Of a DNA stretch of 64,000 bases, positions 20,459 to 52,844 are shown piece by piece. The stretch is taken from positions 50,568,956 to 50,632,955 of the forward strand of contig CM026426.1 of the NCBI GenBank assembly GCA_014871385.1, read 5' to 3'. The stretch is from Ceratodon purpureus (taxonomy: Eukaryota > Streptophyta > Bryopsida > Pseudoditrichales > Ditrichaceae). A program made the translations under genes and the position numbers. How positions within the stretch are numbered: position 1 is the stretch's first letter; every line of letters starts with the position of its first letter. The notes beneath the pieces are model-generated. The model was not told the DNA's origin. It did not search any database and saw nothing but the letters and a program-made list of their open reading frames with translations.

Positions 20459-20583
20459 GTCTGCATCTGCCCTCAGATGCTCTGGTGCCTAGTTTTATGT
20501 AGTTAGCCAAAAATAAAAAAGGAAATAAAAATTAAAAAGAGAGTCTACTACTGGTCCTACCAGTACTCTACGTATCCTACTAC

Positions 20584-26500: not shown

Positions 26501-26946
26501 TTCTCTACTGCTTCAATTTTCTTAGGATCAGGAAATTTCCCTTCCTTAGACACAATGTGGCCCAGTATAATACCAGAGAAAACCAGTAGTAAACATTTCT
26601 CAGGATTTAGACTTATCCCATACTCCCGGCATTTCTCAAAACACTTCCGCAGCTTGACCAGATGACTAATAATGTCACTGTACACACTAAAATCATCCAA
26701 AAACAATTTCATAAAATCACCAATGAAATCACGAAAAGCTTTGTTTACTGCCCTCTGGTATGTGGGAGGTGCGTTTTTCAGCCCAAAAGGCATGACTATC
26801 CACACAAATGCTCCCCAGTCTGTTACAAAAGCAGTCTTCTGCCGGTCCTCTGGTGCTATCTGAATCTGGTGGTACCCGGAGTACCCATCCAGAAACGAAT
26901 ATATCTCGTGTCCTGCCACAGAATCCAACACTTCCTCAGTAAATGG
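20584..26946 (-). CDS. Gag-Pol, 3' part: RT C-terminal half, RNase H, integrase and long extension
   Basis: The frame continues reverse transcriptase after the transposon insertion ([12 protein letters not shown]; catalytic FLDDFSVYS near 26690) and RNase H ([12 protein letters not shown] near 26265). It meets an in-frame TGA at 25795-25797 and then integrase. Integrase has an H-H-C-C finger ([10 protein letters not shown]...CKACDRC), the D,D,E triad in [16 protein letters not shown] and PQGNGQAES, and a GPY-type end (WFGPYRV). About 1300 further residues follow. These are Lys/Glu/Gln-rich coiled-coil sequence and, at about 22130-22800, a globular block ([35 protein letters not shown]) resembling the plant-transposon 'Transposase_32'-like domain of Athila/Tat elements, then more coiled coil. 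No frameshift was found, only stops. Confidence 0.9.
25795..25797 (-). other. In-frame TGA in pol
   Basis: The TGA lies between RNase H (ending LKSGVV) and integrase ([11 protein letters not shown]), with the same frame on both sides. It is compatible with a C-to-T-type change from CGA or TGG. Confidence 0.85.
26940..26946. repeat. Target-site duplication of the inner DNA transposon, left copy
   Basis: TAAATGG is repeated at 46914-46920. Joining the flanks through one copy restores the reverse-transcriptase frame exactly (PYPMPFTEEV). Confidence 0.92.
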
Positions 26947-27022
26947 GAGGGAAGCTTGTACGTGAGCGGAGAGCGCAGAGCGGAGAGCGGTGAGCGCAGA
27001 TTTGGAGAGCGGAGAGCACAGA
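26947..27022. repeat. Left terminal inverted repeat of the inner transposon
   Basis: The end is built of GAGCGGAGAGC-like direct repeats. From 26959 it matches the reverse complement of 46901 leftwards with one difference in the first 43 bases. It then matches more loosely through GGAGAGCACAGAAT. Confidence 0.9.
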
Positions 27023-27665
27023 ATGGGGGACAGAACCTTAAAATAGCAATTTTTTTACTAAAAATAAATTATAAAATTAGAAGATTCAAATATTCTTAGT
27101 GTATTTTTGGAAATTTACTAATTTTAGTAATTTAATTGACACTATAACCGTGGACTAATTACAGTATTTTCATTGAATTTGTAGTTCGTTTTCTCTTTTC
27201 TTGGTGATTAATTTTTTAACGTGCACCAATTACTATGCTCCAGCTCCTTCTAACTAGTTCAAGCATACATTAATTCCCCTTATCTCCTCAAATTTATATG
27301 CAAATTACCGCTTAAAATGTATTGGTACTGAACCTCTGAACAGGGATCAAGTAACATTTAATTTCGTAACATTTTCTTAACATTGATAGAATTCATCCAC
27401 CATAGTCTACATGCCTTTCTCCTTTTTTTTAATTTTTTAAATTTTTTTGATATTTGTCTTGTATTTTTTATAAAATTTTCTTTATTCTATCTATCTTGTT
27501 AGAGGGGTCAAAAGCCTCCTTTCATTTAATTCTCTCCTTCATTTTATTTTCACAATCATTTTATTTTCACATTCAATTTGTTAATCTCCTTCATATTATT
27601 TTCCACCTTCATATTAAATATTGCTATTCTTTACTTTAATCTTTTTAATTTCAATTTATATAAAT

Positions 27666-27698
<33 letters not shown>

Positions 27699-27925
27699 CA
27701 TTCTTTAATTTAAAAAAAAAATTTAAATGCTAAATGACCTCTGCTAAACCTTCATCTTTTTCCATTCGGTTTAGGAGGATGACAACTTTTAAATGAATGA
27801 ATAGCCGATTTTCAAGGGCGCCAAGCATCTTCTTCAGGGATATTTAAGATAAGAGTAGGGAATGTCTCTGCCTCTTTTGTGTTGGTGTTATGTGAAGCTC
27901 TTTTCCGTAGTGCGGGACAGCAGCT
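27023..27925. other. AT-rich subterminal region
   Basis: No gene was seen. A poly-T run lies at 27667-27698. A candidate TATA-like sequence (TATTTAAG) is at 27841, about 85 bp before the ATG at 27926. Confidence 0.5.
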
Positions 27926-28362
27926 ATGGAAGACGTCAGAGATATTATTGTTTCACTTGCTGACGATGTTTGTCCATTTCAACCATATGTTGAGGTGGAG
28001 GACGAAGAAGAGGTGATGGCCAACAGCCAAGGGCGTCCTTCGACAACGGATGTTGACGTACAATCGGATGTAAGAGCTGACCCTCCACGTTCAGAAAATT
28101 CGGATGATATCAGAGTGCTGGAGGAGGACGCAGATGTGCCTTTGCAACCTCATGCATACTCCAAGGTTGGAAAGATCCCAAGGGGAACCTATTCCAGGGA
28201 ATCAGTGGTGGGGCATTGCTGAAACGTTCATACCAAGGACACGCTCCAAGTGTGGGAACGAAAGTGAATGAGAATGTAGTTTGTCCTGTAGTACAGTCAG
28301 CGGCTGGCAGTCCTGCTGATAGTGTAGTGGGCAACCCTAAACGTGTTAGGTTCGAAGAGTGA
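27926..28362 (+). CDS. Small acidic hypothetical protein with a probable frameshift
   Basis: From the ATG at 27926 an acidic frame (MEDVRDIIVSLADDV) runs 98 codons to a TGA at 28222. An overlapping second frame (LLKRSYQGHAPSVGTKVNEN) continues to a TGA at 28362 and ends in a basic PKRVRFEE motif. One coding unit with a shift or a small splice near 28150-28215 explains both. No domain is recognised. It is the first gene inside the left end of the transposon. Confidence 0.4.
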
Positions 28363-28613
28363 GACATCTAATAACAAGTATATGTTTGCTGTAAGAAAGG
28401 GTACATGTCAGGGGAAACGAGGTACATAGTGCACTTGTTCAAGATAGAATGTATTGAAATAGAATGCAATCAATGAGAACGACAAAGCCTTTATAATGAA
28501 AAAGTCAATATAGCTTTCGTGTTGCGGACTTAGTACATGGTATATTACTAAAATCATTCACTCCGTGACAAATGGCCATTGTGGAAATGGCAGTTCTAAA
28601 GTAGGAGGGCTAC

Positions 28614-31600
28614 CTACTTCTTCGCCAAGGGGTGACGCAAGATTCCACTCTCTAAGAGTAGCTTGACCTCGTTGAAGCTGAAGGTAGGCGCATGGATGAA
28701 AAGCTCGGCTTCGGGATCACGGTTGCAGACCTTCAAGAATATGTAGTAAAGGTGCTTACAATATGTGAACTGAGTCTTGCCACGGAACGTAGTCATCGTC
28801 TTCTTGAATGCTGGGCAAGTGCAACCAGGGTAAGAACTGATGGTAATCTGGTACCGTGTGATGTGTGGAGCGACACCCGAATCCAGCCCAATGATGCAAC
28901 CGTGGCCCGGCTCAGGTACCATTGTGACGGAACGGAGGCGCGCTTTAAGAGACTCAGAGGAGTCCATGGAGAGTCGCTGCGCTTGATTGGGACGAGTGGC
29001 GGTGCGCTTCACCATCTTGCCGTCTCTCTTGCCTGGGTAGCGGTCAGCGTCTGCAGGGACTGGCACTGAGCTGAGATTTGCCGGGGGCGGGGCAGAGGAG
29101 AAGAGGCGTCTTGGGGAGACCGGTTTCTTCGGCGGAAGTTGAAAGCCCGCTGCTTCGAGGGCAAGAATCTCAGTGAGTTTTAGGTTAGTACCAAGTTTCA
29201 CTGGCCACACCTCTGGAATGGAGGGGAATTCCTGGTCCTTTGAGTAGTGTGCTACCCACTTCCGCTTAGAGCCTTTCACGCAGCGCTCAATATCATCAGA
29301 GCAGAAGAAGAACTCAGTCTTCTCGACTAGGTTCCTGCGATAGTTAGTCCAGAGCCCAGTGTAGGTCGGGGGAGCTGTGCAATGGGGCCCCGTGACAATT
29401 CTCTCAGTGCACTTCTTCTTTGTTTGAGCTCTCTGGGCCCAGCAGCACTTCGCAGAAAGTTTGTGAAGTCTCGAAATGTGCCACTCCTTCACGTCGACCT
29501 TCGTTTCTTCAACCGCGTTGACATGGCGAATGCCGCCCTTGTTCACTGGTGAAGGTAAAGGGGAATCAACTTCCTGAGCAGGAGATTGGGTACCTTGTAC
29601 CTCGGTGTCGTGTTCGGAGTCGTCTTCCACAATGACAGGCATCTGCATAGGGCGAGCCCTGACGGCACGTCTTGCGCCTCTTGGGCGTGAGAAGTTTGTC
29701 TTATCCGGGCGATGAGACTCCTCGTCAGCTCCGATAAGGACGTCGGCTTTTCGCTTCTGTGAAACGAAGACTTCCGCTCCAGGCATGATAGGCTGACGGG
29801 TGCAGAACTCATCCGCGCCTGGCATATCGAGCATGGGCTTGTCGAGCAGTGTAGGATTTCCCCATTTCTTCGCGTTGCGTTCAGCCATCCGGAGCCTCAG
29901 TTCCTTCTTGGACGGTCCTGTTCCGCCGACGTCACCTTTGAGGAACTGGTAGTAGTTGACAACCTGAAGAAATGCCCGAACAAAATCGTCCACGGTAGCA
30001 ACGTAGAGGTCGTTCCCGTTGTTTCCTGAAGCTTGGAGCCACTTGTTGTGAACTGTTTCGGCGAGGTTACAGGTGGGCATCTCTGTGAGTTCTTCTTTCG
30101 TGAATTTCTGCAGATTTCACAGTAGATGCCGTTAGATTCACGGATTAGAGTTTTGTAGGTTAGGGCTAGGAAAGCAGTATCAAGAACATGAAAACAGAGT
30201 GCAGAGATAATACCTCGGTCATGAATCCCCCCCACTGGCGGAAGCGGTGGTGCCAGAATGACAGCCACTGATCGAGTTTGATGAGCCCGCTCTCGCCAAC
30301 GACCCCGGTGGATGCCCACCATGCTCGCAACGCGTGGTACAGAGTTTCCGCCTCTGCCATGCTGGTCGCATTCTTGTACTGAGTGCACATCTTCTTGTGC
30401 TGTTCCTAGAGTTCTTCGGGGAAGTGCTTCTGCGTATACGCCAACATGTTCTGAGTCCAGTGGAACAAGCACGACCTCTCCCGGTCCTCCATTGGGTCCT
30501 CTTTGTTGCCATTGCCGTAAAGGATTCGCACTGCATTCCAATTCGCCTGTGCGTTATCCGCCATGAACCCCTTGAAGTTCGGCGCTGCAACGCCATTGAT
30601 CTCCATGACCAGGTTCAGGTTTTTCCAGAAGACGAGTTGGGCGTCCGTGTCCTCGGACTGCATGTCGCAAGTGGCGATTGTCATCACGCGGCAGTAGGTG
30701 GCGTCGTACACATGGCACGCCATGGTCGACCAGTCTTTGACGCGTTTTACATGGTCGAACATGATCCATGCGTTTTCCAAGTCGCCACCAGCTTGCATTC
30801 GGCTGACCAAGTCGACACCACTTCCCGGCCCGATCTCCGACATCTTGAAGACAAAGACTTTGTCACGCATGGATCCCTGACCAGGAAACCTATTCTCCTG
30901 GACATACGCCCAGAGACTGTTACCACGGAGCTTGGTGATACCGTCCATGATTCCGTACCTTTTGAATTTTTTGAAGGTGGCGACTTTGTTGCGGATGTTT
31001 GGTGACGCCATGTCTTTGCAACGATCCAGAACAGGAACCAGCTCCTCCATCGTCAGCTTCCTCGGTGGTGCATCTTCGGGCTGTAGTAGGTAGCTCCCGA
31101 TGAGGAGTTTGCTCCCCTCCAGGACAACGGCGCTCTTTGTTGCTTTGTTGTTCATCTCTACCTGCTCTTCTATTAAGCTACTAATCTCTGCTTTAGAATC
31201 TCTGTAGTCTCCAACTTTCACTGGATGATCATGTGTTTCTATGTGATAACAAGCTCTAGTCTGATTCGGTTTGCCCACAACGTAATAAATCTTAGCCTCG
31301 CATGTAGCTACACATGATGGAGGTTCTTTACATACCTTGCACACTAGCGTCGAGTCAGATGGAGGAGGCTGATCCATGACAAAAGCTTGCAGGGTACAGC
31401 CTTCGAACTCAGTCTCGTTTACCTCGAAGATCTTGGGAACACGCTTCAGGAAGTCACACTCCTCGTTCGTGCAACGCAGCCATCCAACACAGGTGGAACT
31501 TCGAAAAGACAGTCCAAAGTCGTTTTTGATGTTTGTTGTGATGGTCTTGGTCCACAAGTGTCCGTCGTATCGTTTGTCCATTCCCTGCATTGACTTGGCG

Positions 31601-32297
31601 GCGAGCTTAGAGGATCTTGCAGCAGCTGGGGGCAACTCAAAAAGAACCGGACCATCAAACTTCGCAGGCAAGTACTCTACTCTCTCGTGTCTAATAGTGG
31701 AATAGTCTATCTTTTTCAAAATGTTTTTTGACCCACGCGTCTTTGCAAGCTGTTGAAGGAGGGGGACAATGCTAACTGTGACCTGGGACAATGGAGGAGA
31801 CACATTGGAAGGAGGAGCATCTGCGTGGACCTTGGGCACCAACTTGACGGGACTGACTTCGTCATCAGAGGAGAGAGTAATGACTGTCGGAGGCGGAGGT
31901 TTCTCTACGTCTGAAGTTTCAGTACCAGGCTCGACCTTGACCTTGACATCACGAGGTAAGGGAGTCTGAATTGTGCAAGTAGAAGAGCGACGGGGGGTGA
32001 GGATCTCAGTGGATGCAGCCATCAGAGAATCAGTAAGACCATAGACTCTATAGGATCCAGGGAAGAGTCTCCACTGCAACATATTATTCTCATCTCTCAT
32101 TGAAGGTTGCCCGAGGGTGTGGGTAACCTCCGCAGTAACGTCATCGAAGATCTCCTCCTCTATACTGATGGAATCCTCACAAAAATGAAATCTGAGACTT
32201 AGGCAAAGAGAGGAAACTGTAGCTAGACCATCGTCATCTACGCAAAACCTAAGGGGGATACCCATGCCTTGGGCGTACAGACAGACCATTCGCATAT
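28614..32297 (-). CDS. MULE-like transposase with C-terminal SWIM zinc finger (in-frame stop)
   Basis: Exon 1 (32297-30214) begins at an ATG reading MRMVCLYAQGMGIPLRF. It carries a VKVEPG sumoylation-type motif and TVITLSSDDE (like a SUMO-interacting motif) near 31850-31955, then Cys/His clusters (CTNEECDF, CKVCKEPPSC, YHIETHDH). The transposase core follows: VYDATYCRVMTIATCD, FKGFMADNAQANWNAVRI and SCLFHWTQNM, the D...D...C-x2-H arrangement of MULE transposases. A TAG at 30406-30408 breaks the frame, which continues to a donor at 30214. Exon 2 (30107-28614) ends with a SWIM finger (CTCPAF...YCKHLYYIF). The stop suggests this copy is inactive or recently decayed. It is divergent from the ParB/methyltransferase gene across a 580-bp spacer. 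Confidence 0.8.
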
Positions 32298-32879
32298 TTG
32301 CAGGCAATTCAGAGATATTACAGGAAGAAGGGAGAAGAGGGAGTGTACTAGCGAAGCAGTATCGCGAGAGCAAAGTGAGAGGAATGATGCATCGCTGTTG
32401 ATCATTTTATTCTAGTTGGAATGTCCATGTGGACGACTAGGTAATGATTCATTCTGTTACGAAACGAATGTATGATTAAAGAGAGACGGCGCTAACTAAT
32501 TAGAATGTTGCTTTCTGCAGGCATGAGGGTAGGGATTTTTAGAAGTACGCATTTAATATATGAATCGTGGAACCGATTCTATTCGATGTGGAGGATGGTT
32601 AGATTAGACTGAGCCGTCAGTTGTGTCCATATTTAATATAAGTTTTCCAGTGCTTAATTTAAAACTTTTATTATTTTGTGGGCTTCGTTTATTCTCTTCC
32701 AATATAGATTGATCTCATCAGCTTTAATTCAAAATGCAATTATTTATAGTTTTCACTAATTTAAGTAGGTTAAATATTAAGGGCTGAATCAGAGGACTTG
32801 AAGGTTTGGAATATATAAGAGGAAGGGAAGTTAGAAGGAGAGCTATATTGTGAGGAGAGTTCTCTCGTTAGTTAGACAC
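32298..32879. promoter_or_regulatory. Divergent promoter region
   Basis: This AT-rich spacer lies between the transposase ATG (minus) and the ATG at 32880 (plus). A TATA box (ATATATAA) at 32811-32818 is 62 bp before the plus-strand ATG. No equally clear TATA was picked for the minus strand. Confidence 0.5.
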
Positions 32880-35800
32880 ATGAAGGAGAGTGGAGGGTCA
32901 GCTCCCTCCACTTATGTCACTCCTAAACCTAGAAGAAAACCAGGTGGTACAGATTTTACGAATAGGAGAGCGAGGAAAAGGAGAGAATCACGTAGAAAAG
33001 AGAAGTCGAAAGGCAACCTCTTGAGTGCACCTTTGAAGGTTAGAGGAGTAGGGCTGCCTCTGGCAATTAATTTTTGTAGCATTCGGAAACTCATTCTCGA
33101 GTCTATAGTGGAAATAAAAGATGAGGTTTTAGATGTTCCAGTTGGGGACCATGGTGTAGTAAACATGGACGATAAAAGCAATGAGATGACGGAACATTTA
33201 GGGTTTAGTGGTTTAGAAACACCACAGTCTCCGCAGCCTTCGTTTGGCTTAAACGAGTCACTTCTAGAAGAGATAGCTTTAGTATCCACAGAGGATCTAC
33301 TTTCTACAGAAGTAAGTTACTGACCTTCCATTTAAATCTTGAATGTGTATTGGTCAATTCGGAATCAGACTGCTTCGTTTCTGATGTTATTGTCTTGACT
33401 AGCATAATTCTAGTTGTAACCGACGTACTTTACTGTGCTTTATGTTTTGCGAAATCTTAGACTTATTTTAAATGCAGATTTCAGAAAGTAAAATTCTGAA
33501 TTCTCCTTTGTAGTTAAGCTAACTTTGTTCTTTTGAGGAAGTGGACCGAGGGTGGAGGTTCTAGATTTGCTAAACAGAGTCGAGGAGTGAGGGGGGGCAA
33601 TTCAGAAGCTCCAGAAGGAACTGGTGAGTGGGTGGGAGGTGCTGCGAGAGCAAGGAGAGCAATAATGGAGGAAGGAGAGGCAGTGGATCGTCAACACGCG
33701 GCCCGTGGAGGTCTTAAAAAAGGTGGGCGAAAAGGGGCGCTGCGGGGAGGGCGAGCAGGTGGGAGTGGGGGAGGCCGTGGTAGGGGTGCAGAGGGGAAGG
33801 GTTCGAAGATGCAGGTCGAGAGGGGGCGTCGCGGAGGTGAGAGGCGGGGAGAGCAGCGCGGTGGGCGAGGAGCAGGGCGTGGTCGCATCAACGTAGAGGA
33901 GGGCTCCGAAATGGCTGCCCAGGCTTGGGGAGACGAAGATATCCAGAATGGGGATCAAGGACCGGAAGAGCACGAAGAGGATCAGGAGGTTGAACAACAG
34001 GGCGAGGACCAAGAGAAAGACGACGACGACGAGGATGGTGAGGAAGACGACCACGACCAGGATGGAGAAGAGGAAGAGGAGAACGAGCAGGATGGAGAAG
34101 AGGACGAGGAGGACGAGCAAGAAGAGGTTGGAGTAGAGGAGCACGGACAGCAGCAGCGCCGCCGCTACACCGACGTCGAGGTATTGAATTACCGAGGGAT
34201 TGAGTGAGGATGGTGGGTTCAAGTGTATGCTTGAGGTTTGTGGGGATTTGTCAAAATTTGGTTTTGGGGTTTTGGGATTTTAGGTTTGGTTGGATTGTTG
34301 GGGTTTGTCGGAATGGCTTTGGTGCTTGAAGCTTTCGGCCCCGAATGTATGTGGAGGGCCTTGAGCAGTGAGCTGCTTGCCGAGGCTCGGCCCCTAAGGC
34401 AGGGCCAATGATGCAGCCATGGCTCTTTTTTTTTTCTCAATGCCATTGGTGCTTGAAGCTTTCGGCCCCGAATGTATGCGGGGGGCCTTGAGCAGTGAGC
34501 TGCTTGCGGAGGCTCGGCCCCTGTGGCTGGGCCGATGATGCAGCCACGGCTCTTTTTTTTTTTTCAATGCCATTGGTGCTTGAAGCTTTCGGCCCCGAAT
34601 GTATGTCGGGGGCCTTGAGCACTGAGCTACTTGCGGAGGCTCAGCCCCTGTGGCAGGGCCAATGATGCAGCCATGGCTCTCTTTTTTTTTCTCAATGGCT
34701 TTGGTGCTTGAAGCTTTCGGCCCCGAATGTATGTGGGGGGCCTTGAGCAGTGAGCTGCTGGCGGAGGCTCAGCCCTTGTGGCTGGGCCGATGATGCAGCC
34801 ATGGCTCTCTTTTTTCTTCTCAATGGCTTTGGTGCTTAAAGCTTTCGGCCCCGAATGTATGTGGGGGGCCTTGAGCACTGAGCTGCTTGCAGAGGCTCGG
34901 CCCCTTGTGGCTGGGCCAATGATGCAGCCACGGCTCTTTTTTTTTTCTCAATGGCTTTGGTGCTTGAAGCTTTCGGCCCTAAATGTATGTGGAGGGCCTT
35001 GAGCACTGAGCTACTTGCGGAGGCTCAGCCCCTGTGGCAGGGCCGATGATGCACCCATGGCTCTCTTGTTTTTTCTCAATGCCATTGGTGCTTGAAGCTT
35101 TCGGCCCCGAATGTATGTGGGGGGCCTTGAGCACTGAGCTGCTTGCGGAGGCTCGGCCCCTGTGGCAAGGCCGATGATGCAGCCATGGCTCACTTTTTTT
35201 TTCTCAATGCCATTGGTGCTTGAAGCTTTCGGCCCCGAATGTATGTGGGGGGCCTTGAGCATTGAGCTGCTTGCGGAGGCTCGGCCCCTGTGGCTGGGCC
35301 GATGATGCAGCCACGGCTCTTTTTTTTTTTCTCAATGCCATTGGTGCTTGAAGCTTTCGGCCCCGAATGTATGTGGGGGGCCTTGAGCACTCAGCTGCTT
35401 GCGGAGGCTCGGCCCTTGTGGCTGGGCCGATGATGCAGCCATGGCTCTCTTTTTTTTTCTCAATGGCTTTGGTGCTTGAAGCTTTCGGCCCCGAATGTAT
35501 GTGGGGGGCCTTGAGCAGTGAGCTGCTGGCGGAGGCTCAGCCCTTGTGGCTGGGCCGATGATGCAGCCATGGCTCTCTTTTTTCTTCTCAATGGCTTTGG
35601 TGCTTAAAGCTTTCGGCCCCGAATGTATGTGGGGGGCCTTGAGCACTGAGCTGCTTGCAGAGGCTCGGCCCCTTGTGGCTGGGCCAATGATGTAGCCACG
35701 GCTCTTTTTTTTTTCTCAATGGCTTTGGTGCTTGAAGCTTTCGGCCCCGAATGTATGTAGAGGGCCTTGAGCACTGAGCTACTTGCGGAGGCTCAGCCCC

Positions 35801-38800
35801 TGTGGCAGGGCCGATGATGCACCCATGGCTCTCTTGTTTTTTCTCAATGCCATTGGTGCTTGAAGCTTTCGGCCCCGAATGTATGTGGGGGGCCTTGAGC
35901 ACTGAGCTGCTTGCGGAGGCTCGGCCCCTGTGGCTGGGCCGATGATGCAGCCATGGCTCACTTTTTTTTTCTCAATGCCATTGGTGCTTGAAGCTTTCGG
36001 CCCCGAATGTATGTGGGGGGCCTTGAGCATTGAGCTGCTTGCGGAGGCTCGGCCCCTGTGGCTGGGCCGATGATGCAGCCACGGCTTTTTTTTTTTTTCT
36101 CAATGCCATTGGTGCTTGAAGCTTTCGGCCCCGAATGTATGTGGGGGGCCTTGAGCACTGAGCTGCGTGCGGAGGCTCGGCCCTTGTGGCAGGGCCGATG
36201 ATGCAGCCACGGCTCTTTTGTTTTTCCTCAATGCCATTGGTGCTCGAAGCTTTCGGCCCCGAATGTATGTGGAGGGCCTTGAGCATTGAGCTGCTTGCGG
36301 AGGCTCGGCCCCTGTGGCTAGGCCGATGATGCAGCCATGGCTCTCTTTTTTTTTCTCAATGCCATTGGTGCTTGAAGCTTTCGGCCCCGAATGTATGTGG
36401 GGGCCTTGAGCAGAGAGCTGCTTGCGGAGGCTCGGCCCTTGTGGCTGGGCCGATGATGCAGCCATGGCTTACTTTTTTTTTCTCAATGCCATTGGTGCTT
36501 GAAGCTTTCGGCCACGAACGTATGTGGGGGGCCTTGAGCAGTGAGCTGCGTGCGGAGGCTTGGCCCTTGTGGCTGGGCCGATGATGCAGCCACGGCGCTT
36601 TTGTATTTTCTCAATGCCATTGGTGCTTGAAGCTTTCGGCCCCGAATGTATGTGGGGGGCCTTGAGCACTCAGCTGCTTGCAGAGGCTCGGCCCTTGTGG
36701 CTGGGCCAATGATGCAGCCACGGCTCTTTTTTTTTTCTCAATGGCTTTGGTGCTTGAAGCTTTCGGCCCGGAATGTATGTGGGGGGCCTTGAGCACTCAG
36801 CTGCTTGCGGAGGCTCGGCCCTTGTGGCTGGGCCGATGATGCAGCCACGGCTCTTTTTTTTTTCTCAATGCCATTGGTGCTTGAAGCTTTCGGACCCGAA
36901 TGTATGTGGGGGGCCTTGAGCAGTGAGCTGCTTGCGGAGGCTCGGCCCCTGTGGCTGGGCCGATGATGCAGCCAGGGCTCTTTTTTTTTTTCTCAATGCC
37001 ATTGGTGCTTGAAGCTTTCGGCCCCGAATGTATGTGGGGGGCCTTGAGCACTAAGCTGCTTGCAGTGGCTCGGCCCTTGTGGCTGGGCCGATGATGCTGC
37101 CATGGCTCACTTTTTTTTTCTCAATGCCATTGGTGCTTGAAGCTTTCGGCCCGGAATGTATGTGGGGGGCCTTGAGCATTGAGCTGCGTGCGGAGGCTCG
37201 GCCCTTGTGGCAGGGCCGATGATGCAGCCACGGCTCTTTTGTTTTTCCTCAATGCCATTGGTGCTCGAAGCTTTCGGCCCCGAATGTATGTGGAGGGCCT
37301 TGAGCATTGAGCTGCTTGCGGAGGCTCGGCCCCTGTGGCTAGGCCGATGATGCAGCCATGGCTCTCTTTTTTTTTCTCAATGCCATTGGTGCTTGAAGCT
37401 TTCGGCCCCGAATGTATGTGGGGGCCTTGACCATTGAGCTGCTTGCGGAGGCTCGGCCCTTGTGGCAGGGCCGATGATGCAGCCATGGCTTACTTTTTTT
37501 TTCTCAATGCCATTGGTGCTTGAAGCTTTCGGCCACGAACGTATGTGGGGGGCCTTGAGCAGTGAGCTGCGTGCGGAGGCTTGGCCCTTGTGGCTGGGCC
37601 GATGATGCAGCCACGGCGCTTTTGTATTTTCTCAATGCCATTGGTGCTTGAAGCTTTCGGCCCCGAATGTATGTGGGGGGCCTTGAGCACTCAGCTGCTT
37701 GCGGAGGCTCGGCCCTTGTGGCTGGGCCGATGATGCAGCCATGGCTCTCTTTTTTTTTCTCAATGGCTTTGGTGCTTGAAGCTTTCGGCCCCGAATGTAT
37801 GTGGGGGGCCTTGAGCAGTGAGCTGCTTGCGGAGGCTCGGCCCCTGTGGCTGGGCCGATGATGCAGCCACAGCTTTTTTTTTTTTTCTCAATGCCATTGG
37901 TGCTTGAAGCTTTCGGCCCCGAATGTATGTGGGGGGCCTTGAGCATTGAGCTACTTGCGGAGGCTCGGCCCTTGTGGCTGGGCCGATGATGCAGCCACGG
38001 CTCTTTTTTTTTTCTCAATGCCATTGGTGCTTGAAGCTTTCGGCCCCGAATGTATGTGGGGGGCCTTGAGCAGTGAGCTGCTTGCGGAGGCTGGGCCCCT
38101 GTGGGTGGGCCGATGATGCAGCCAGGGCTCTTTTTTTTTTTCTCAATGCCATTGGTGCTTGAAGCTTTCGGCCCCGAATGTATGTGGGGGGCCTTGAGCA
38201 CTAAGCTGCTTGCGGAGGCTCGGCCCTTGTGGCTGGGCCGATGATGCAGCCATGGCTCACTTTTTTTTTCTCAATGCCATTGGTGCTTGAAGCTTTCGGC
38301 CCCGAATGTATGTGGGGGGCCTTGAGCATTGAGCTGCGTGCGGAGGCTCGGACTTGTGGCAGGGCCGATGATGCAGCCACGGCTCTTTTGTTTTTCCTCA
38401 ATGCCATTGGTGCTCGAAGCTTTCGGCCCCGAATGTATGTGGAGGGCCTTGAGCATTGAGCTGCTTGCGGAGGCTCGGCCCTTGTGGCTGGGCCGATGAT
38501 GCAGCCATGGCTTACTTTTTTTTTCTCAATGCCATTGGTGCTTGAAGCTTTCGGCCACGAACGTATGTGGGGGGCCTTGAGCAGTGAGCTGCGTGCGGAG
38601 GCTTGGCCCTTGTGGCTGGGCCGATGATGCAGCCATGGCTCTCTTTTTTTTTCTCAATGGCTTTGGTGCTTGAAGCTTTCGGCCCCGAATGTATGTGGGG
38701 GGCCTTGAGCAGTGAGCTGCTTGCGGAGGCTCGGCCCCTGTGGCTGGGCCGATGATGCAGCCACAGCTCTTTTTTTTTTTCTCAATGCCATTGGTGCTTG

Positions 38801-41800
38801 AAGCTTTCGGCCCCCAATGTATGTGGGGGGCCTTGAGCAGTGAGCTGCTTGCGGAGGCTGGGCCCCTGTGGGTGGGCCGATGATGCAGCCAGGGCTCTTT
38901 TTTTTTTTCTCAATGCCATTGGTGCTTGAAGCTTTCGGCCCCGAATGTATGTGGGGGGCCTTGAGCACTAAGCTGCTTGCGGAGGCTCGGCCCTTGTGGC
39001 TGGGCCGATGATGCAGCCATGGCTTACTTTTTTTTTCTCAATGCCATTGGTGCTTGAAGCTTTCGGCCACGAACGTATGTGGGGGGCCTTGAGCAGTGAG
39101 CTGCGTGCGGAGGCTTGGCCCTTGTGGCTGGGCCGATGATGCAGCCACGGCGCTTTTGTATTTTCTCAATGCCATTGGTGCTTGAAGCTTTCGGCCCCGA
39201 ATGTATGTGGGGGGCCTTGAGCACTCAGCTGCTTGCGGAGGCTCGGCCCTTGTGGCTGGGCCGATGATGCAGCCATGGCTCTCTTTTTTTTTCTCAATGG
39301 CTTTGGTGCTTGAAGCTTTCGGCCCGGAATGTATGTGGGGGGCCTTGAGCAGTGAGCTGCTTGCGGAGGCTCGGCCCCTGTGGCTGGGCCGATGATGCAG
39401 CCACAGCTCTTTTTTTTTTTCTCAATGCCATTGGTGCCTGAAGCTTTCGGCCCCGAATGTATGTGGGGGGCCTTGAGCAGTGAGCTGCTTGCGGAGGCTC
39501 GGCCCCTGTGGGTGGGCCGATGATGCAGCCAGGGCTCTTTTTTTTTTTCTCAATGCCATTGGTGCTTGAAGCTTTCGGCCCCGAATGTATGTGGGGGGCC
39601 TTGAGCACTAAGCTGCTTGCGGAGGCTCGGCCCTTGTGGCTGGGCCGATGATGCAGCCATGGCTCACTTTTTTTTTCTCAATGCCATTGGTGCTTGAAGC
39701 TTTCGGCCCCGAATGTATGTGGGGGGCCTTGAGCAGTGAGCTGCGTGCGGAGGCTCGGCCCTTATGGCAGGGCCGATGATGCAGCCACGGCTCTTTTGTT
39801 TTTTCTCAATGCCATTGGTGCTTGAAGCTTTCGGCCCCGAATGTATATGGGGGGCCTTGAGCAGTGAGCTACTTGCGGAGGCTCGGCCCTTGTGGCTGGG
39901 CCGATGATGCAGCCATGTTTTTTTTTTTTTTTCTCAATGCCATTGGTGCTTGAAGCTTTCGGCCCTGAATGTATATGGGGGCCCTTGAGCACTGAGCTGC
40001 TTGCGGAGGCTCGGCCCTTGTGGCTGGGCCGATGATGCAGCCATGGCTCTCTTTTTTTTTTTCAATGGCTTTGGTGCTTGAAGCTTTCGGCCGAATGTAT
40101 GTGGGGGGCCTTGAGCAGTGAGCTGCTTGCAGAGGCTCGGCCCTTGTGGCTGGGCCGATGATGCAGCCACGGCTCTTTTTTTTTTCTCAATGCCATTGGT
40201 GCTTGAAGCTTTCGGCCCCGAATGTATGTGGGGGGCCTTGAGCACTGAGCTGCTTGCGGAGGCTTGGCCCTTGTGGCTGGGCCGATGATGCAGCCGTGGC
40301 TGTCTTTTTTTTTCTCAATGCCATTGGTGCTTGAAGCTTTCGGTTCCGAATGTATGAGGGGGGCCTTGACACTGAGCTGCTTGTGGCTGGGTGATGAGGC
40401 ATTTTCTTGCACTTATTTCCTTACATTGGTTCGCCGGTCATGGTTTTTGGTCGTTGCTTGGGATGGGCGGGGGCCTTATTTGGCTCTCTTGGTCAGGGCA
40501 CTTACATTGCAGGCTGATGATCCTAATGCTCATTTTATGGTCTGTAATTTAGGAGTCATCTGAGGATAACATGGGGAGCCAAGTACAAGTAGCGACTCCA
40601 GCGGAGACCGAGGTACTTTAATTTGTACCTTATTCCTTACATGATTTAGCATTTCTGAAATTATTTATGTTTTTTATTGTTTAACTTTTGTTGACATTGG
40701 AATTTAATCTTTTTTTTTTCATAATCTAGGTATATTCCGATGCTCCAGAGCTTTCTGCCAATTCCCCCATATCAGTAATAAATGTTTCCGACCTTTCGGA
40801 TTCATTTGATCTGCATAACTGTACTTGTGATGTAGCAAACCCTGTAGGTTTTGGTAGCGTACCTTTAGCGGTCCATTCTCCACAGTACATGCCTACATCT
40901 CCAGTGTACATGCCTACGTCCCCTGTCTATGAGCCTACTTCCCCTCGCTACATGCCCACCTCTCCTACACAGGATTCACCACCGATGTCTCCACCCTCTC
41001 CATCATTGCCTATCAGACTTAGGCGGCCAGCTCATGTTGTGTTTGCCCTTCCGGCAATTCTGCCATGCCCTGTCCAACAAACGAGGCGTTTCTGGAGGAG
41101 GCGCCGTCATTGGAACTGTAGACAGTCTAAGGAGTATTATAGGCGATCATCACGTCGATAGAGTCTTCAGGCTTAAATGATATTGTACTTGTTGTATTCG
41201 AATTATCATTATGAAGTGATTTCATATTTCTCTATTTTGCAAGACTTTCTAAGTTTTGATTCCAACATTAATCTGCACATCGTTTTGCAGGTTACTCAAA
41301 CACAAGAAGTGTTGGTAAAACAGTCTTGTCCTAAAGACTTGAAGACTGCTTTTGAGGGCGAATTGGAGCACCGTAAACAATACAAGCTGGACTCCATAGG
41401 CGTCATCAACAAACTCAGGATTCAACCGGAAAGGAAGTCCCGCTTGATGGTGCCCCTGTGCAGGATGATATCAATGGCCAAGGTTAGACCAGTGGGCGAA
41501 ATGGGGGTACAGCACTTGGAGCGGGAGTTTGTTAAGGGGTATAGAGATGGAGAACGCGTCATGTACATCTCCATATACAACAGTGAAGAGCAGACGAAGG
41601 ATGTTACGGCGGAGACCATAGGTGGTTGGAGCCCTTTATGGAGGGCCGCGAGTGATCGTTTTGATGATGACATCCGTGGAGACGAGGAGTGGATGCAATT
41701 CACCAACAAGATGTTCTTTGTCTGGGAAGGTAACCACCGCCTCGCTGCCTGGCTCCGACATATAAACAAGCACCATGCGGACGACCCAGCATGGCACATC

Positions 41801-44800
41801 TCAGTACATTGCATTATACTAGACCCCCGCGGCCATGTGGGCAAGTTGCTTCACGCCATGCACGACATTAACTGGTAAGTATCTCCGTTGTTATCCTTCT
41901 TTGTGTACACTCAAACCTTTGAGCTACTGCATTTTATTCCTCTAATATTCAACTTTGTTTTTCAGGTCAACTGAGAATGACCACGTCAAGAGTAATCTTC
42001 CAGCAAAGTTGTTTCGAATCCGCTCATTCGGGATGATGAAACTGGAGGATTTTAAAGACCTCCTCAGCCCTAAAGAATATGATGCATGTCTGAAACACAA
42101 GCCACCTAATCCGTCGTGGTTTCCCTTGACAACCAAGATTTTTATAGCATTTCTATACCGTGTAAGTTTTGTTGCCATCCATTCTTCGCTTCTGCAACTT
42201 GGATAAATTTCAATATCCTGATAAATACTTTTGTTTCAACAGCGGGAAATCGCACAAGCCTCCGACGACGCAGCGAGGGCCTACTATGAGAAGACACCAG
42301 AGGAGGATCAAACAGCAAATGGAGTTTGGGAAGTCATGAATGAGGCATCTGAGAAAATGGTCGAATCCATCAAGAAGAAGGACTTTACCAAGTACTTGGC
42401 CATTGCGAATCCCAAGAACGGTGACGACTTCCTTAATGAGGTGACACACTCACTAATGCCATTTACAATACTTCGTATGTCAACGTGATTTTCTTAATTC
42501 GTAGCGTCTAAAACAATCACTCTTCATGCAGATCAATCGACATTACAGTGACTTCTCGAAACCGGAGATGACCCTTGAGAAGCTACAGAAAATTGTCCCA
42601 GCAGCAGTTGAGCCCAAATACAAGGCTCGCTGGTTGAGGTGGTGGAACTCATCCCCAAATTCCAGACTATCTTACAGAATCCTTCCGCTCGAATTCAAGG
42701 AAACCGACCTCGACCCTTGGTTGAACAAGGCTTCATTTTGGGCTGGGGTATATTCTCTACATTTAGTATTCAAACTACATTATAGTTTTAATTTTTCTTA
42801 ACTTCTACCTCGTCGCTAATATATTTTCGTCTATATTATAGTTGGAGGAAGCTGTCATCAATGAAGTCGAGGACATATGCAAAGCGGAGAACCTCATCAT
42901 CAATTGGAAGGATTTTCCTGATGTCCAAGAACCGGGGGCTTATGTGGAGAGTTCACGTATTCTTTTATGGGACAAGGCCTTCCCGACGTTCCTTGGAAAG
43001 CAGGCTGAGAAGGTTTATGACAAGAAGTCTAACTTCGCTAAATTCCCTGGAACCGCTGAGGTTGTCAAGCGGGTTACTTATCCGTACGTATGTTATCTTC
43101 ATGTCATTCGTTTTCCGCAATAATGGGCTGTTTTTATTTTACTGATGCTAACCTTCTTTAAAATTGTTTATTTAGGTACTTTAAGACAGAGCTTGTTCCA
43201 AAAGGCGTCCTCACCGTCCAGCAGCTCCCCAGCTACTTCCTTGCTTGGACGTCGAGAACCTCGGACCAGTGTATCTATTCTCCACAACAGTTGAAAAGGT
43301 ACAAAGCTCCCCACTTGCTTGAGGGATGCTGGTACCTTGATTGTTTTCGCGGTTTCACTATTGACTCTGAGGTGGACATCAAGACTTTACATGATGCCGG
43401 TGAGGTAGTGGCCAAAGAAGCGGTGGAAGCTACTGAAGATGGCGGAGGCCCTGAAGACCAATCATCGGCTCCTCCACCGAAGAAAGGGAGAGCTCGGCGA
43501 CTGAAATCTTTGCGATCACATTCACAAGCTTCACAGCAAACTGGTGCGGCGTCTTCTGCTCCAGAGCAGACGGCACCAAAGCCCTCTCCAGGTAATGTGG
43601 TTACGAAGCCCTCTTCAACCTCTTCACCGGGTCCTTCCTCGATCAGTGCTTCGGAGATCACCAGAGGTCTCCTTCAGCAGAGGAAGGCCAAACTATATCC
43701 TCAAACAACTTCTTCCGCTGGAGCTTCATGCTCAACACAAGTTTCCGTCTTCAACTCATCTGTGGATTCCTTGTTACGGCGAAATAAGAGACAAGAGAGA
43801 AAAGGTGGCGACCCGGATTGGATCAAGACTCAAGACTTCATTCGCAAGGTATGTTCCAATATTTTGACATTTAATGGATTCTGCCACCTCTACTCGCTAT
43901 GTAGTTACTAACTCTCGTTTCTTGTTTCCTCAAGTTTGGAGCAGGCCGCGAAAACGAAGTTCCGGACCGGTGCAAACAAGAGGACCATCTGGGAGTCGAC
44001 TTGATCATTGCCGACATCCCTGAGAATCTTCCCGTCCCTTCCGTTTCCGTTCCCCCCACGAGTATTCCGCCTTGGAACTCTCGCGGGAAGGATTATTTGT
44101 ACGACATCTTCCATTTTGCAGATAAATACCTGCAGAAAAATGGTGCCATCTGCCTCATCTACAACACTGATCAGAAGCTGGCTAAGGATATCGAGGAAGA
44201 AGCTGCTGGTGGTCACTACGTGCTTTTCAAGGACTGGTGGGGTGTCAATGTACTCGGCCTGACTTCTCCAACGAACCCCGAGAACTTGGTAATTTCCCTA
44301 AACATACCCTTATCTTTACTTATTGATAACCCTTCCGCTTAATTTTACTCACTAGTTTTCCTTGACTGCAGACTATGCGGTTCTGGATTCGCGTCTACGT
44401 TCGTAGTGGCAGTACTTTCTCCTTCCAGACGAAGAAGGAAGAGCTGATACATGGGCTCCTCAACATTACCGAGAGTGATGCCATTTTCAACTTCACCGAT
44501 GTGGATTTGCAGCTCATGAATGGGGAGGTGCCGTGGAGAGGCGCAAGCGAGAAATCCATTGACATGATGCAGGGCATACTTGAGGAGCTGTCAAAGCCCG
44601 GCGACATAGTCCTTGACTGGAATGCTGGGACAGGTAACTATTCATGCATATCTTTGGTGAATTATTCCTCTCGTTTTTACCACAGTTTCTCATTTGTTTG
44701 TATCTCTCCGAGTTTTAAGGAGCCTCCATCAAGGCTGCCCAGGCTATTGGTCGCCACATTCTCGCTTTTGAGGAGGACGAAGCCATATTCAACGCCCTTC

Positions 44801-45252
44801 TCAAACCATCCGCCATGGGCCCTCCTAAACATCCTAGGCCGGCAGCAGCAGACGAAGCCCCTCCAAAGAGACCGAGACCTGATAAGTGGTGTAAGCCTTC
44901 TATTCTTTGTTCAAATTCTCCAAGCATTACTTCTCTTTGCAGCTCTACGTACTCGATCTAATTACAATCGGTTCTCTATTGCAGAGTAGTTTCAGCAACA
45001 CCGCCACGTGGGCCAACATCAGTGTCCACTCCATCGTGGCGTCTTCATTCCAGCCCGATTCAGCCTTTCATACTTCCGGACTACGCAGAAGACTTAGCAC
45101 AGGCGTTTCAATTTGGAGCCCTTACATATGTTCCTAGTCGGCCAACTACTTTTGATCCCAGGGCCCTTCTATTCGTCGATGACGAGGCGGTAGAAGGAGA
45201 TTCGGAGTCATCTAGTTCTGAGAGTGAAAGTAGCGACTGTAGCATGTTGTGA
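32880..45252 (+). CDS. Copy B: ParB-like / permuted DNA amino-methyltransferase-like fusion with CTD-like heptads, about 14 exons
   Basis: Inferred exons: 32880-33311, 33551-34180, 40553-40612, 40730-about 41161, 41291-41874, 41966-42161, 42243-42440, 42532-42747, 42842-43083, 43176-43848, 43935-44288, 44372-44633, 44720-44890, 44987-45252. Apart from the uncertain end of exon 4, all have GT..AG borders and agreeing phases, with no internal stop. Domains in order: basic N-terminus; RGG-rich then Asp/Glu-rich segment; four YxPTSPx heptads; ParB-like fold ([17 protein letters not shown]); helical middle; basic Ser/Pro linker; methyltransferase motif-IV position ([13 protein letters not shown]); motif I ([12 protein letters not shown] then [16 protein letters not shown]); acidic Ser-rich tail. 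The order IV then I is that of beta-class N6-adenine/N4-cytosine enzymes. The GxG loop is intact, but the aromatic of (D/S)PP(Y/W) is missing, so catalysis is uncertain. Start chosen 62 bp after a TATA box. Confidence 0.7.
34312..40395. repeat. Minisatellite: about 47 copies of a 128-bp unit
   Basis: Each unit has GGTGCTTGAAGCTTTCGG, CCTTGAGCA, GAGCTGCTTGCGGAGGCTCG, GGCCGATGATGCAGCCA and a T-rich run, with periods of 127-129 bp caused by T-run length. It fills nearly all of the intron between exons 2 and 3 of copy B (34181-40552). Subtypes (CTTACTTTTTTT, CGCTTTTGTATTT, CTCTTTTGTTTTT) recur in the same order in blocks, showing higher-order duplication, for example around 36100-36600 and 37120-37620. 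Confidence 0.95.
40886..40966 (+). other. RNA polymerase II CTD-like heptads in copy B exon 4
   Basis: The frame reads [27 protein letters not shown]: nearly four units of the Y-x-P-T-S-P-x pattern of the Rpb1 C-terminal domain (consensus YSPTSPS). The repeat is short, and Ser2 is replaced by Met or Glu while Ser5 is kept. Confidence 0.8.
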
Positions 45253-45768
45253 GTTTGAAGTAGGCTTCGGTCTATTGTTCATTTCATTGGATTTGATTTG
45301 ATTTAATTGGAGTTTGTATTGCGTAATCCTTCGTCTACTCTACTACCCTAAACCTAAACTTGTTATGATTGTCATATCCAATTTGTCTCCGTGTTTGTAA
45401 AGGATGAAATGTCACAACCATAATGCTCAAAATATAATATGAAGAATGAAATGTTACAAAAGAAATGCTCAAAAATAATATTGTGCTGTTATTTATATTT
45501 TACTCATTCAAAATCCCACATTTGCATAGCCATGTTACCTATTCTTGACTTGGTGTACATCTTGGTTTCTGCTACTCCAGTATTGTACACGAACTCTGAA
45601 ATATTCCACGAACTTTTAAGACCATTTGTTTTAGTTGGTTTCGAGTTCTCTTATTTCTAGAATCATCTATATTATCTAAATCCATCATGCTGGAATACTC
45701 GTATCTAGATCCAATAAAAGACCAAATCTTAAGGATTGTATTCGAACACCCCGCTAGACTTCACAGTA
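45253..45768. other. Convergent 3' flank, no gene seen
   Basis: The AT-rich spacer lies between the tail-to-tail ends of copy B (plus) and the LRPW gene (minus). One short open frame at 45439-45660 has no recognisable features. Confidence 0.5.
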
Positions 45769-46140
45769 CTAATCCTTTGGAGGATATACAGTCCAACTCT
45801 TGTCCATATCAAACCAGCAAGTTTCGCCATCCGATATGATCACTTCGGGCAGCTGAACAACTGGATTCTCATCGACGTTCGAAAGCAAGGGATACGGGAT
45901 TAGGGACAATTCCATAATACGGAGAAGCTCATTGGTACAAAGCACTGTCCAACGCCATTCACCTTCACCAACATGGAGGCTTCCGATGTGCCTAAACGGT
46001 GGCAGGTCCATGCCTCGTTCCCTGGCGCGCTCCACCTCCAACAGCCACGGCCGCAGCTCCTCATAACTCGCCGGTGCCTTTGGGGGCAAACCTACAGCCG
46101 CTCTCGTCCTCCTGGATCTCGCATTACACACCTTCGGCAT
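45769..46140 (-). CDS. LRPW-domain protein, single domain (transposon cargo)
   Basis: From an ATG at 46140 the minus strand encodes about 123 residues: a short basic start (MPKVCNARSRRTRAAVG), then one LRPW unit (SYEELRPWLLEVERARERG, MDLPPF, GEWRWTV, LRIMELSLIPYPLL) and an acidic, aromatic C-terminus ending YPPKD. It matches each half of the tandem gene at 9138-9665 over about 65 residues (ELRPW, RAR.RG, PP, EW.WT, IM, PL). The frame remains open upstream to 46257 without a better ATG. It lies tail-to-tail with copy B near the right end of the inner transposon. Function unknown; no known domain recognised. Confidence 0.6.
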   Translation of the reverse strand: MPKVCNARSRRTRAAVGLPPKAPASYEELRPWLLEVERARERGMDLPPFRHIGSLHVGEGEWRWTVLCTNELLRIMELSLIPYPLLSNVDENPVVQLPEVIISDGETCWFDMDKSWTVYPPKD

Positions 46141-46843
46141 CGCGCAACACACTGAATTCTTGTAGTCTTCAAACGTTACACTCAAGCATGCAGATTGACA
46201 TCCCCGAACTCCTACGCTACCTTCGCATACAGCACAACATGCCAAGGACTGTGTCACTATCCAAATACGCCACCTAGAGACAAGCTATAGAAACCAAGAG
46301 TGACCTCCTTCTCTGGAACCCAGCTTACCAAGTGCTGTTTGATGATGAAAATCTCCTACTTGTATCACTCAAATGAAGATGCTTCGCTGCCTAGGAAGAC
46401 AGAGTAATCTTCGATGAAGACAAGGACTCTAACAAGGTATATCTTGGTTTCAGCAGTTAAGATATTATACACGAATTCTAAAATATTCCAGGAAGTTTTC
46501 AAACCTTGCCTCCTTTACGTTCTTTCAAATTTGTTTTTTCCCTTGTGCATTTACATAATCCTATGAAAGAATTATTTGTTTGATCTAAAACTTAACGCCT
46601 GATCATTGTATCTTGCCTAAACCCATGACAAATCTAACAAAATATATGCATGACGTCATCATGACATCAGCCCTAATTTGTCTCATAGAGAACAAACGTA
46701 AGAAAATCTTACCAGAGATAACCCTGATTTCCACGGTAATATACTCTTTTTCTAAAAAAAGTGTCATAATTAAGCCTTAATTTAGTAATTTTCCACGGTT
46801 ATAGGGTCTACTTTGCTTTTGAAAATTTTCCTAATTGTCAATT
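46141..46843. other. Right subterminal region of the inner transposon
   Basis: AT-rich sequence with no gene seen, leading to the right terminal inverted repeat. Confidence 0.5.
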
Positions 46844-46913
46844 CTGTGCTCTCCATTCTGCGCTCACCGCTCTCCGCTCTACGCTCTCCGCTCACGTACG
46901 AACTTTCCCCCCA
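46844..46913. repeat. Right terminal inverted repeat of the inner transposon
   Basis: It is the reverse complement of the left end, with the shared core CGCTCTCCGCTCACGTAC. Its outermost dozen bases (ACTTTCCCCCCA) match the left tip (GAGGGAAGCT) only loosely. Confidence 0.88.
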
Positions 46914-46920
46914 TAAATGG
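46914..46920. repeat. Target-site duplication of the inner DNA transposon, right copy
   Basis: TAAATGG, identical to 26940-26946. The flanking bases differ (A here, G at the left), so the direct repeat is exactly 7 bp as it stands. Confidence 0.92.
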
Positions 46921-52240: not shown

Positions 52241-52839
52241 TGTTAAAGGGTGATTAAGCTTCACCCTTAAAAAGCTTGGTTACTTCTACTAAATCAAACA
52301 GAATCTGAAAAAAATGTAGTACTGACCCTTCTTCTTCTACTACTACTAACCTGATCCTGCTAACACCAGAATCCTGCTCCCTGCTCCCTATCTGATCATC
52401 AATGCAAAGCTTCCTCATTCAATTCTCCCTAATCCTAACATTCAATACTCAACTCAGATCTGTAAATGCAATGTCTTTACTCATTACTTCTCCGCCAAGT
52501 ACAACCATACTGCCCATAACTCTGATCTACAGCAGTATCTTCTCCTCTCCTACCTCCTAACCCCTCCTTACTCCTAACCATACCATTGAAAACCCTAGAG
52601 ACTGAGAGAGAGAGTGAGAGCCGCCATGCTCTCACTCCTCACTACCCCCCAAACCCTAGCCGTCATCCTCCTATGTCCATTTTTCATCCAGTTCAGAATT
52701 ACATCCGACTGTCAAAACTTCATCCAAAACGCAGTGGACAGTAAATGGGCAGTAACTAACTAGTTACTGCTCCAGGCAGTTTTACCGTTCCTGCTCCTAC
52801 AGTACTGCTCTAGTAAAATGGCAAAAAATCCCTTTAACA
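52241..52839 (-). repeat. 5' LTR
   Basis: 599 bp, about 99% identical to the left LTR. It is followed outside by GAACT. Confidence 0.95.
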
Positions 52840-52844
52840 GAACT
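52840..52844. repeat. Target-site duplication of the LTR element, right copy
   Basis: GAACT, identical to 19841-19845. Confidence 0.92.

Follow-up and report, generated by a model that had tools for sequence, protein, structure and literature searches.

A MULE-like transposon of the moss Ceratodon purpureus with a mosaic cargo gene: a ParB-like motif region and an amino-methyltransferase-type domain

The element, its copies and its transposase

The DNA analysed here is a stretch of 64,000 nucleotides from the genome of the moss Ceratodon purpureus (contig CM026426.1, positions 50,568,956 to 50,632,955), hereafter called the window. At positions 26947..46913 it contains a complete MULE-like DNA transposon of 19,967 bp, inserted in the pol gene of a retrotransposon. 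The element carries a transposase gene and, divergent to it, a cargo gene of 14 exons which, judged from its sequence, joins a ParB-like N-terminal region (so called by motif) to a DNA amino-methyltransferase-type domain. What is new here is the mosaic nature of this cargo: four old types of exons 4-10 are found on a near-identical backbone.

The element was delimited by its inverted repeats, by the empty site with its target duplication and by the recurrence of its left end. The terminal inverted repeats pair over 58 nt (26943-27000 with 46857-46914) and are 91% complementary. Within the element boundaries, the left repeat (26947..27000, plus strand) carries GAGCGGAGAGCGCAGA-type repeats, and the right repeat occupies 46857..46913 on the minus strand. 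The target duplication TAAATGG flanks the element on both sides (26940..26946 and 46914..46920); in the window copy it is exact at 7/7 positions, and over nine bases 7/9 agree. Exact duplications of 9-10 bp were found in all five other copies in which both ends were read (c13, c6, c8b, c8c and c6b, located below), that of c13 being a C-rich stretch. When the element and one duplicate were deleted from the sequence, the pol frame was open over the entire joined stretch of 569 codons. Near-identical direct repeats at ~19862-20503 and 52257-52949 (98-100% in translated pieces) bracket the gag-pol open reading frames (ORFs) and are probably the two long terminal repeats of the young retrotransposon hosting the element.

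The 362.5-Mb host genome, in which the window is G000:C6:50568956-50632955, was searched with the left end as query (26940-27160), and the best 40 places, window included, of 1513 first-look candidates were scored. The left end recurred at the 39 other scored places, all with at least 97% identity (97-98%). The match began at 26947 in 30/39 places and 1-5 bases further left in 9/39. All 29 other loci that were fetched were ~93-97% identical inward, over up to 1.7 kb, in a comparison that used the element cut at 26947 and is thus no independent test of the boundary; their left flanks differed where printed. Both the terminal features and the further copies with the same ends that the original prediction had called for are therefore present, and the window element is one of many copies of a MULE-like transposon that has been active recently. 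C6 holds 19 of the 40 scored left-end places versus 30.5% of the genome (binomial p 0.025), an excess among the best-scoring places that is a hint only. The accessible text of PMC8000587 gives a genome of ~360 Mb for C. purpureus, with U and V each above 100 Mb and ~30% of the genome.

Nine other copies were compared with the window copy. Their left ends lie at C13:6225866 (c13), C8:1340707 (c8a), C8:15459687 (c8b), C8:12770851 (c8c), C6:62770225 (c6), C5:3889920 (c5), C6:22721759 (c6b), C6:97345716 (c6c, minus strand) and C2:1059960 (c2). Six copies were fetched as stretches of ~26 kb, which reached the right end in four; three more were read partly, and two of those were extended.

The transposase gene (28614..32295, minus strand) consists of exon 1 (~32295-30214) and exon 2 (~30107-28614). 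The window copy has one in-frame stop, near 30409, at a codon without a stop in 6/6 other copies, and the stretch 32295-30230 is stop-free in four of the seven copies (c13, c6, c8b and c8c). Over the 21 pairs of these seven copies, the ratio of nonsynonymous to synonymous divergence (dN/dS) was 0.10-0.34 at a synonymous divergence (dS) of 0.05-0.16. The motif DATY was present in 7/7 copies including the window, MADNAQANWNAV and CLFHW in 6/7 each, and a SWIM-like CxC...CxH motif (CTC...CKHL) in 7/7. We take the four motifs to be those of a MULE transposase with a SWIM region. Target duplications in the Mutator superfamily measure 8-11 bp, usually 9. However, the spliced transposase matched no Pfam family, MULE and SWIM included, even at E 10, and the transposase core gave no match in the PDB. 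Of the Mutator features, the duplication size and the inverted repeats are present, and the MULE/SWIM transposase originally predicted is recognised by its motifs but by no Pfam profile. We use the name "MULE-like" because the motifs and the 9-10 bp duplications fit while the Pfam MULE profile gave no match. The element resembles plant MULEs in these duplications, in having inverted repeats and in the DATY, C..H and SWIM-like motifs of its transposase; it differs from them in the lack of a Pfam MULE/SWIM match, in inverted repeats of just 58 nt and in a whole-gene cargo that is kept across copies.

The cargo gene and its domains

The cargo gene lies on the plus strand, and its 14 exons join into a stop-free frame of 1467 aa. 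Exons 1-2 (32880..34180; 32880-33311, 33542-34180) encode a basic, RGG-rich and acidic N terminus of low complexity. They are followed by exons 3-10 (40553..43848; 40553-40612, 40730-40843, 41291-41874, 41966-42161, 42243-42440, 42532-42747, 42842-43083, 43176-43848). As measured between copies, exons 4-10 form the variable module, in which exon 5 (41291..41874) holds the ParB-like region. Exons 11-14 (43935..45252; 43935-44288, 44372-44633, 44720-44890, 44990-45252) encode the N6_N4_Mtase-type domain, with DIPE as motif IV and LDWNAGTG as motif I. The model of exons 1-3 is that of the window copy, joined by partial exon 1 matches elsewhere and by exon 3 in c6b and c6c. Exons 4-14 are supported by the comparison of copies: their splice sites and lengths are largely kept where introns are 70-73% alike, and in c8b and c8c none of them differs in length from the window's, although the introns are just 70% alike. 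The 14-exon gene, divergent to the transposase, that had been read from the window sequence is thus confirmed. If exon 4 remained unspliced at 40843, the frame would continue through repeats similar to the RNA polymerase II tail (YMPTSP) up to a stop; this stretch (40844-41161) is a possible alternative 3' exon of the gene.

The cargo gene was present in 8/8 other copies whose cargo region was read, and in the ninth, c2, the sequence reached satellite only. Three copies (c6b, c6c and c2) had first seemed to be without the gene; the stretches in question were satellite, and the gene was then found in c6b and c6c. The original prediction had named the lack of this gene in other copies as a point that would speak against it, and none of the eight lacks it. 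The reading of the element as a MULE-like transposon of a eukaryote whose cargo gene has several exons is supported. Exons 5-14 have no internal stop in the window, c8b and c8c and are disrupted in c13, c6 and c5 (3/6). In c13, exon 12 has one base too many and exon 13 carries a deletion; c6 has stops and a non-AG acceptor of exon 5, and c5 has several faults. The acceptor of exon 6 is non-AG in c8b, and the donor of exon 8 is non-GT in c8a. Copy c8a was left unassembled, with ~13 kb between its exons 8 and 9.

A full-length homologue search with the spliced cargo protein gave nothing at E 0.01. Searches with single exons worked because the relatives in the database occur as exon-sized pieces. 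Exon 5 had 38 relatives in the public protein set, with 46-86% identity; 29 of them stop exactly at the splice donor, which indicates a spliced eukaryotic family. No relative of exon 5 was confirmed in IMG/VR, and none was found at E 10 in the phage collection.

A candidate GxxR-type box, VW[ED]GNHR, was present in 35 of the 39 exon 5 rows; it resembles the GxxR box of ParB. When exon 5 was compared with ParB-methylases by hhalign, this motif was aligned with scores of 18.0 for the whole exon, 17.9 for the core and 16.6 after removal of a putative loop. In the control for the loop-removed version, 60 column shuffles averaged 12.3, at least five exceeded 16.6, and the maximum was 21.4. No Pfam ParB match was obtained in the 39 rows and no NCBIfam ParB match in five; the ParB PHROG was matched by 3/39 rows, with E 0.056 at best, and in the PDB the exon 5 profile gave chance-level matches only. 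The ParB assignment originally made was therefore not upheld by profile comparison, and "ParB-like" is used here as a name that rests on a motif, not on proven homology.

The C-terminal part of the protein matched the Pfam family N6_N4_Mtase (PF01555) with 28.5 bits against a cut-off of 26.7, the match spanning profile positions 164-218 of 221 only, which is the motif I part. A tblastn search of phages yielded a DNA methylase of Wolbachia phage WO (colinear over 98% of the query, 24% identity, E 0.008). The phage protein (MN180251.1) has itself an N6_N4_Mtase domain and a ParB_N match of 25.3 bits (cut-off 26.3), or 28.2 in another search. Alignment with six phage and plasmid enzymes showed the motif order IV then I and an S-adenosylmethionine (SAM) motif of the form D..xGxG, kept as LDWNAGTG; the position of DPPY is taken by DIPE. 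A profile comparison of exon 11 with 13 ParB-methylases (12 hand-picked among 80 listed rows, plus phage WO) paired the motifs with a P of 0.0065, obtained without a shuffled control, and with a probability of just 5.8%. Searching the PDB with the cargo protein gave weak amino-methyltransferase matches mixed with unrelated ones.

Motif IV reads DIPE in 13/13 aligned members (the window and twelve exon 11 relatives), and [DNS]PP[YFW] in none, whereas DPPY is present in all 13 phage and plasmid ParB-methylases compared. Among the copies, c6b, c13, c6, c8b and c8c have DIPE and c8a has DVPE; the motif IV pattern was not found in the disrupted copy c5. The SAM motif I is kept in the window, c6b, c13, c8b, c8c and c5, it contains a stop in c6, and in c8a EWSTGTG replaces DWNAGTG (D to E). 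As far as sequence can tell, there is support for membership in the methyltransferase fold family and none for canonical catalysis, which may have been lost through DIPE. The domain that had been predicted as DNA amino-methyltransferase-like thus keeps its family, but its motif IV sequences, DIPE in 13/13 aligned members and DVPE in c8a, cast doubt on modification. A Pfam "DNA methylase" match in such elements need not mean methylation.

These data bear on two explanations of what the protein does. One is active self-marking, by which it would put N6-methyladenine or N4-methylcytosine on the element. The same reading has been proposed for an Ectocarpus Sola1 protein (accessible text of PMC12477816), and it fits the Pfam score above the cut-off and the SAM motif kept in the copies named above. 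Given the uniform DIPE in place of the DPPY of all the compared ParB-methylases, we consider self-marking unlikely; the earlier self-methylation idea must account for this motif. According to the other, the cargo protein would be part of the transposition machinery, with a role in structure, nicking or targeting (end synapsis or site choice), and unrelated to DNA modification. A non-canonical motif IV, the orientation of the gene divergent to the transposase and its presence in every copy read would be in line with this, as would the report, in the accessible text of PMC5512222, that a ParB-methylase of Bacillus cereus acts through its ParB part as a nonspecific nicking enzyme. The kept SAM motif would stay unexplained, however, and ParB homology is itself unproven, so that we rate this explanation as improbable.

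Cargo types, satellites and neighbouring genes

Comparison of seven copies revealed blocks of very different identity. Block A (left end and transposase) was 94.8-97.5% identical in all pairs. Block B (exons 4-10) fell into four types, {window}, {c13, c6}, {c8a, c8b, c8c} and {c5}, with 66.5-78.4% identity between types and 92.7-97.0% within them, c8a being compared over 2035 of 3151 columns. In block C (exons 11-14), identity was 92.8-95.7%, except for c8a (68.6-77.9%) and c5 (88.2-89.0%, over 719 of 1331 columns). The right end was 92.7-95.8% identical in five copies and lower, 86.9-91.8%, over a short stretch in c8a. A step in identity at ~43,700, within exon 10, was seen in 4/4 copies scanned.

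Between types, exons 5-10 showed a dS of 0.53-1.41 and a dN/dS of 0.14-0.26 (13 pairs, 6 copies); within types, dS was 0.06 and 0.14. For exons 11-14, dS was 0.08-0.12 (6 pairs, 4 copies). Since the transposase dS is 0.05-0.16, old, constrained versions of the cargo reside on a young backbone. Copy c8a is 94% identical to c8b and c8c in block B and only 77-78% in block C, indicating that modules recombined inside the cargo gene. We conclude that the cargo gene is kept by purifying selection, that the versions of its N-terminal module are old and fall into discrete types, and that at least one copy has undergone recombination inside the gene.

A tree of exon 5 was built from 38 rows (of 45, seven were removed as shorter than 160 aa; c5 was left out). 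In this tree, c13 and c6 clustered with P0003 (100/100) and the copies from C8 with P0001 (86/94), separately from the window type. Because the types group with different relatives, they predate separation from the sources of these relatives, unless the relatives come from the same species.

The constraint on exons 5-10 has to be set against the broken frames. MULEs are well known for pack-type gene capture, and with 3/6 tested copies disrupted the cargo gene could be regarded as a captured relic, a passenger without benefit to the element. A passenger would hardly be expected in 8/8 other copies read, with the low dN/dS between types and with 38 exon 5 relatives of which 29 end at the same splice donor; we find this very unlikely. 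A stronger competitor is homogenisation, in which gene conversion keeps the ends and the transposase alike while the cargo, too diverged to convert, retains old differences that have no functional meaning. The likeness of left end and transposase in all pairs of seven copies would follow from it, as would introns 5-13 that are just 70-73% alike to the window's in four copies. On the other hand, the exons of the variable block are under purifying selection, and the sharing of block B but not block C by c8a means that modules have recombined. Homogenisation is possible in our view, though doubtful.

In 10/10 copies examined, window included, a tandem array lies in the interval that runs from the cargo gene's start to exon 5. 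In the window it is a satellite in intron 2 (34319..40383) with 47.5 copies of a 128-bp unit, and arrays of the same unit in c6b and c6c hold at least 75 copies, reaching the edge of the stretch read. The other copies have units of 108 bp (c13, 2.4 copies; c6, 3.4), 210-211 bp (c8a, 2.4; c8b, 8.2; c8c, 9.2), 127 bp (c5, 2.7) and 201 bp (c2, at least 47.7). These values refer to the top-scoring array per copy (c13 and c8b have others), and arrays of two to three units are weak evidence alone. Unit likeness within types was 97-98%, 77% and 63-68%; between types no alignment exceeded 70 nt, except that c2 and the c8 copies are ~60% alike. The 128-bp arrays of c6b and c6c led us to expect exons of the window type in these copies. 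Indeed, such exons were found, 96.7-100% identical to those of the window, and the type of array matches the type of module in 9/9 copies with both known. This agreement is explained by linkage alone, because the array sits inside the exchanged block. In c6b, c6c and c2 satellite alone accounts for over 9 kb of the 10 kb in each stretch; the array can thus become larger than the element's coding part.

Near the right end, the element also has a small conserved ORF of 123 aa (MPKVCNARSRR...; 45772..46140, minus strand); among five copies, its codons vary synonymously at 10 positions and nonsynonymously at 4. Its variable sites number 16/369, versus 69/399 and 115/755 in the flanks. Among the ORFs of the window, it (region 45772-46284, minus strand) is related to one at 9141-9860 on the minus strand (43% over 67 aa, E 7e-13), whose distance to the beginning of a DUF7869 gene is ~2 kb. 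This likeness suggests that two unlike elements may share accessory genes.

The DUF7869 gene (11760-14606, plus strand; Pfam E 7e-43), possibly a transposase gene, belongs to the left part of the window. Divergent to it, at 1-3047 on the minus strand, is a different multi-exon gene that seems to continue beyond the window's left edge. On visual inspection, it looks ParB-like (INGQHSVAASK) and, further on, like a degenerate methyltransferase (IIDFQYLP ... YAGTKSLMAAA); pieces of it gave no convincing match in Pfam. Together, the two genes may represent another class of transposon whose cargo is of the same kind. Around both (10-15069) are 20 copies of the 21-nt palindrome TTTAGCTCGASTCGAGCTAAA, with up to 3 mismatches, compared with 0 in 100 shuffles; these palindromes are candidate binding sites. 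A DUF659 protein at 16426-17445 (minus strand; Pfam E 2e-37) is probably a hAT-type transposase relic.

Proposed function and comparison with known systems

As the best overall explanation of these results, we propose that the cargo protein aids the element by binding DNA through its variable module and acting through its SAM-binding domain, and we give this proposal about an even chance. The long protein would bind element DNA, perhaps its own intronic satellite or the ends of the element. Its SAM-binding domain might then act by atypical methylation or, likelier given DIPE, as a non-catalytic regulator with a methyltransferase fold, which would counter host silencing or control transposition. 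Swapping the module would give the protein a different recognition target, much as specificity modules alter recognition in bacterial restriction-modification systems. A more specific version, in which the variable module is a sequence reader, the intron 2 satellite its cognate site and each cassette a reader with its landing array, would amount to a transposon-borne counterpart, in a eukaryote, of ParB/parS or of exchangeable restriction-modification modules, with an effector of methyltransferase fold whose chemistry was lost or changed; we regard this version as decidedly unlikely.

Several observations weigh against a cargo protein that works for the element in this way. Its frame is broken in three of the six copies tested (c13, c6 and c5), and an acceptor in c8b is non-AG. 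Homology to ParB lacks significance, with hhalign scores below the shuffled maximum, the Pfam methyltransferase match is confined to the motif I part, the exon 11 profile comparison had a low probability, and DIPE is without the aromatic residue of [DNS]PP[YFW]. For exon 11 alone, dN/dS was 0.41-2.61 (15 pairs, few changes), and for exons 11-14 it was 0.26-0.55 (6 pairs); these higher values make the methyltransferase half look less constrained in recent times than exons 5-10. A similar mosaic could also arise through gene conversion of the backbone.

The proposed function predicts that every type of module binds the array or the ends belonging to it, and that copies whose cargo is intact are set apart by their methylation or silencing. 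That eukaryotic transposons carry base-modifying or base-reading accessory proteins is a new and little-tested idea, and the family described here combines high copy number in a moss, selection and discrete types of one module.

Transposable elements bearing DNA methyltransferase genes are also known from charophytes and dinoflagellates. According to the accessible text of PMC5890265, those elements are retrotransposons and their enzymes cytosine (C5) methyltransferases, which are called structurally unrelated to adenine methyltransferases. The ParB-methylases of phages and plasmids, for example that of Wolbachia phage WO (MN180251.1), share with the cargo protein the order of a ParB part (in the cargo protein ParB-like by motif) followed by a methyltransferase and, in the case of phage WO, a colinear methyltransferase half (98% of the query, 24% identity). 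They differ in being encoded in one frame of ~400 aa (386-443 in translated stretches) with DPPY, whereas the cargo protein is spliced, has 1467 aa and carries DIPE, and its ParB-like region has no significant ParB profile match.

In the open literature we found no such cargo in a MULE or a land plant, in a search that did not look for DIPE or cassette exchange and left subscription papers mostly outside. To this extent the original claim that no MULE with such cargo has been described holds, but the same domain pair is in print for a Sola1 element. The closest known system is this Ectocarpus transposon, Sola1-1_Ec32, whose accessible description (PMC12477816) reports a gene for a 1104-aa protein with ParB and N4/N6 methyltransferase domains, and proposes self-binding and self-modification for that protein. 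We compared the two elements by description, not by sequence, and in the part of the account available nothing was found on motif IV, cassette exchange or satellites. Both are DNA transposons of ~20 kb with an accessory gene on the strand opposite the transposase, and both combine ParB-like and N4/N6 methyltransferase domains. Of the arrangement with both domains in one gene divergent to the transposase, the moss element has the orientation and the methyltransferase part, and the ParB part by motif only. The two elements differ in transposase (Sola1 versus MULE-like) and in host (brown alga versus moss). The general kind, a ParB and methyltransferase gene in a eukaryotic transposon, is already in print; the moss element adds to it the modular mosaic and the non-canonical motif IV.

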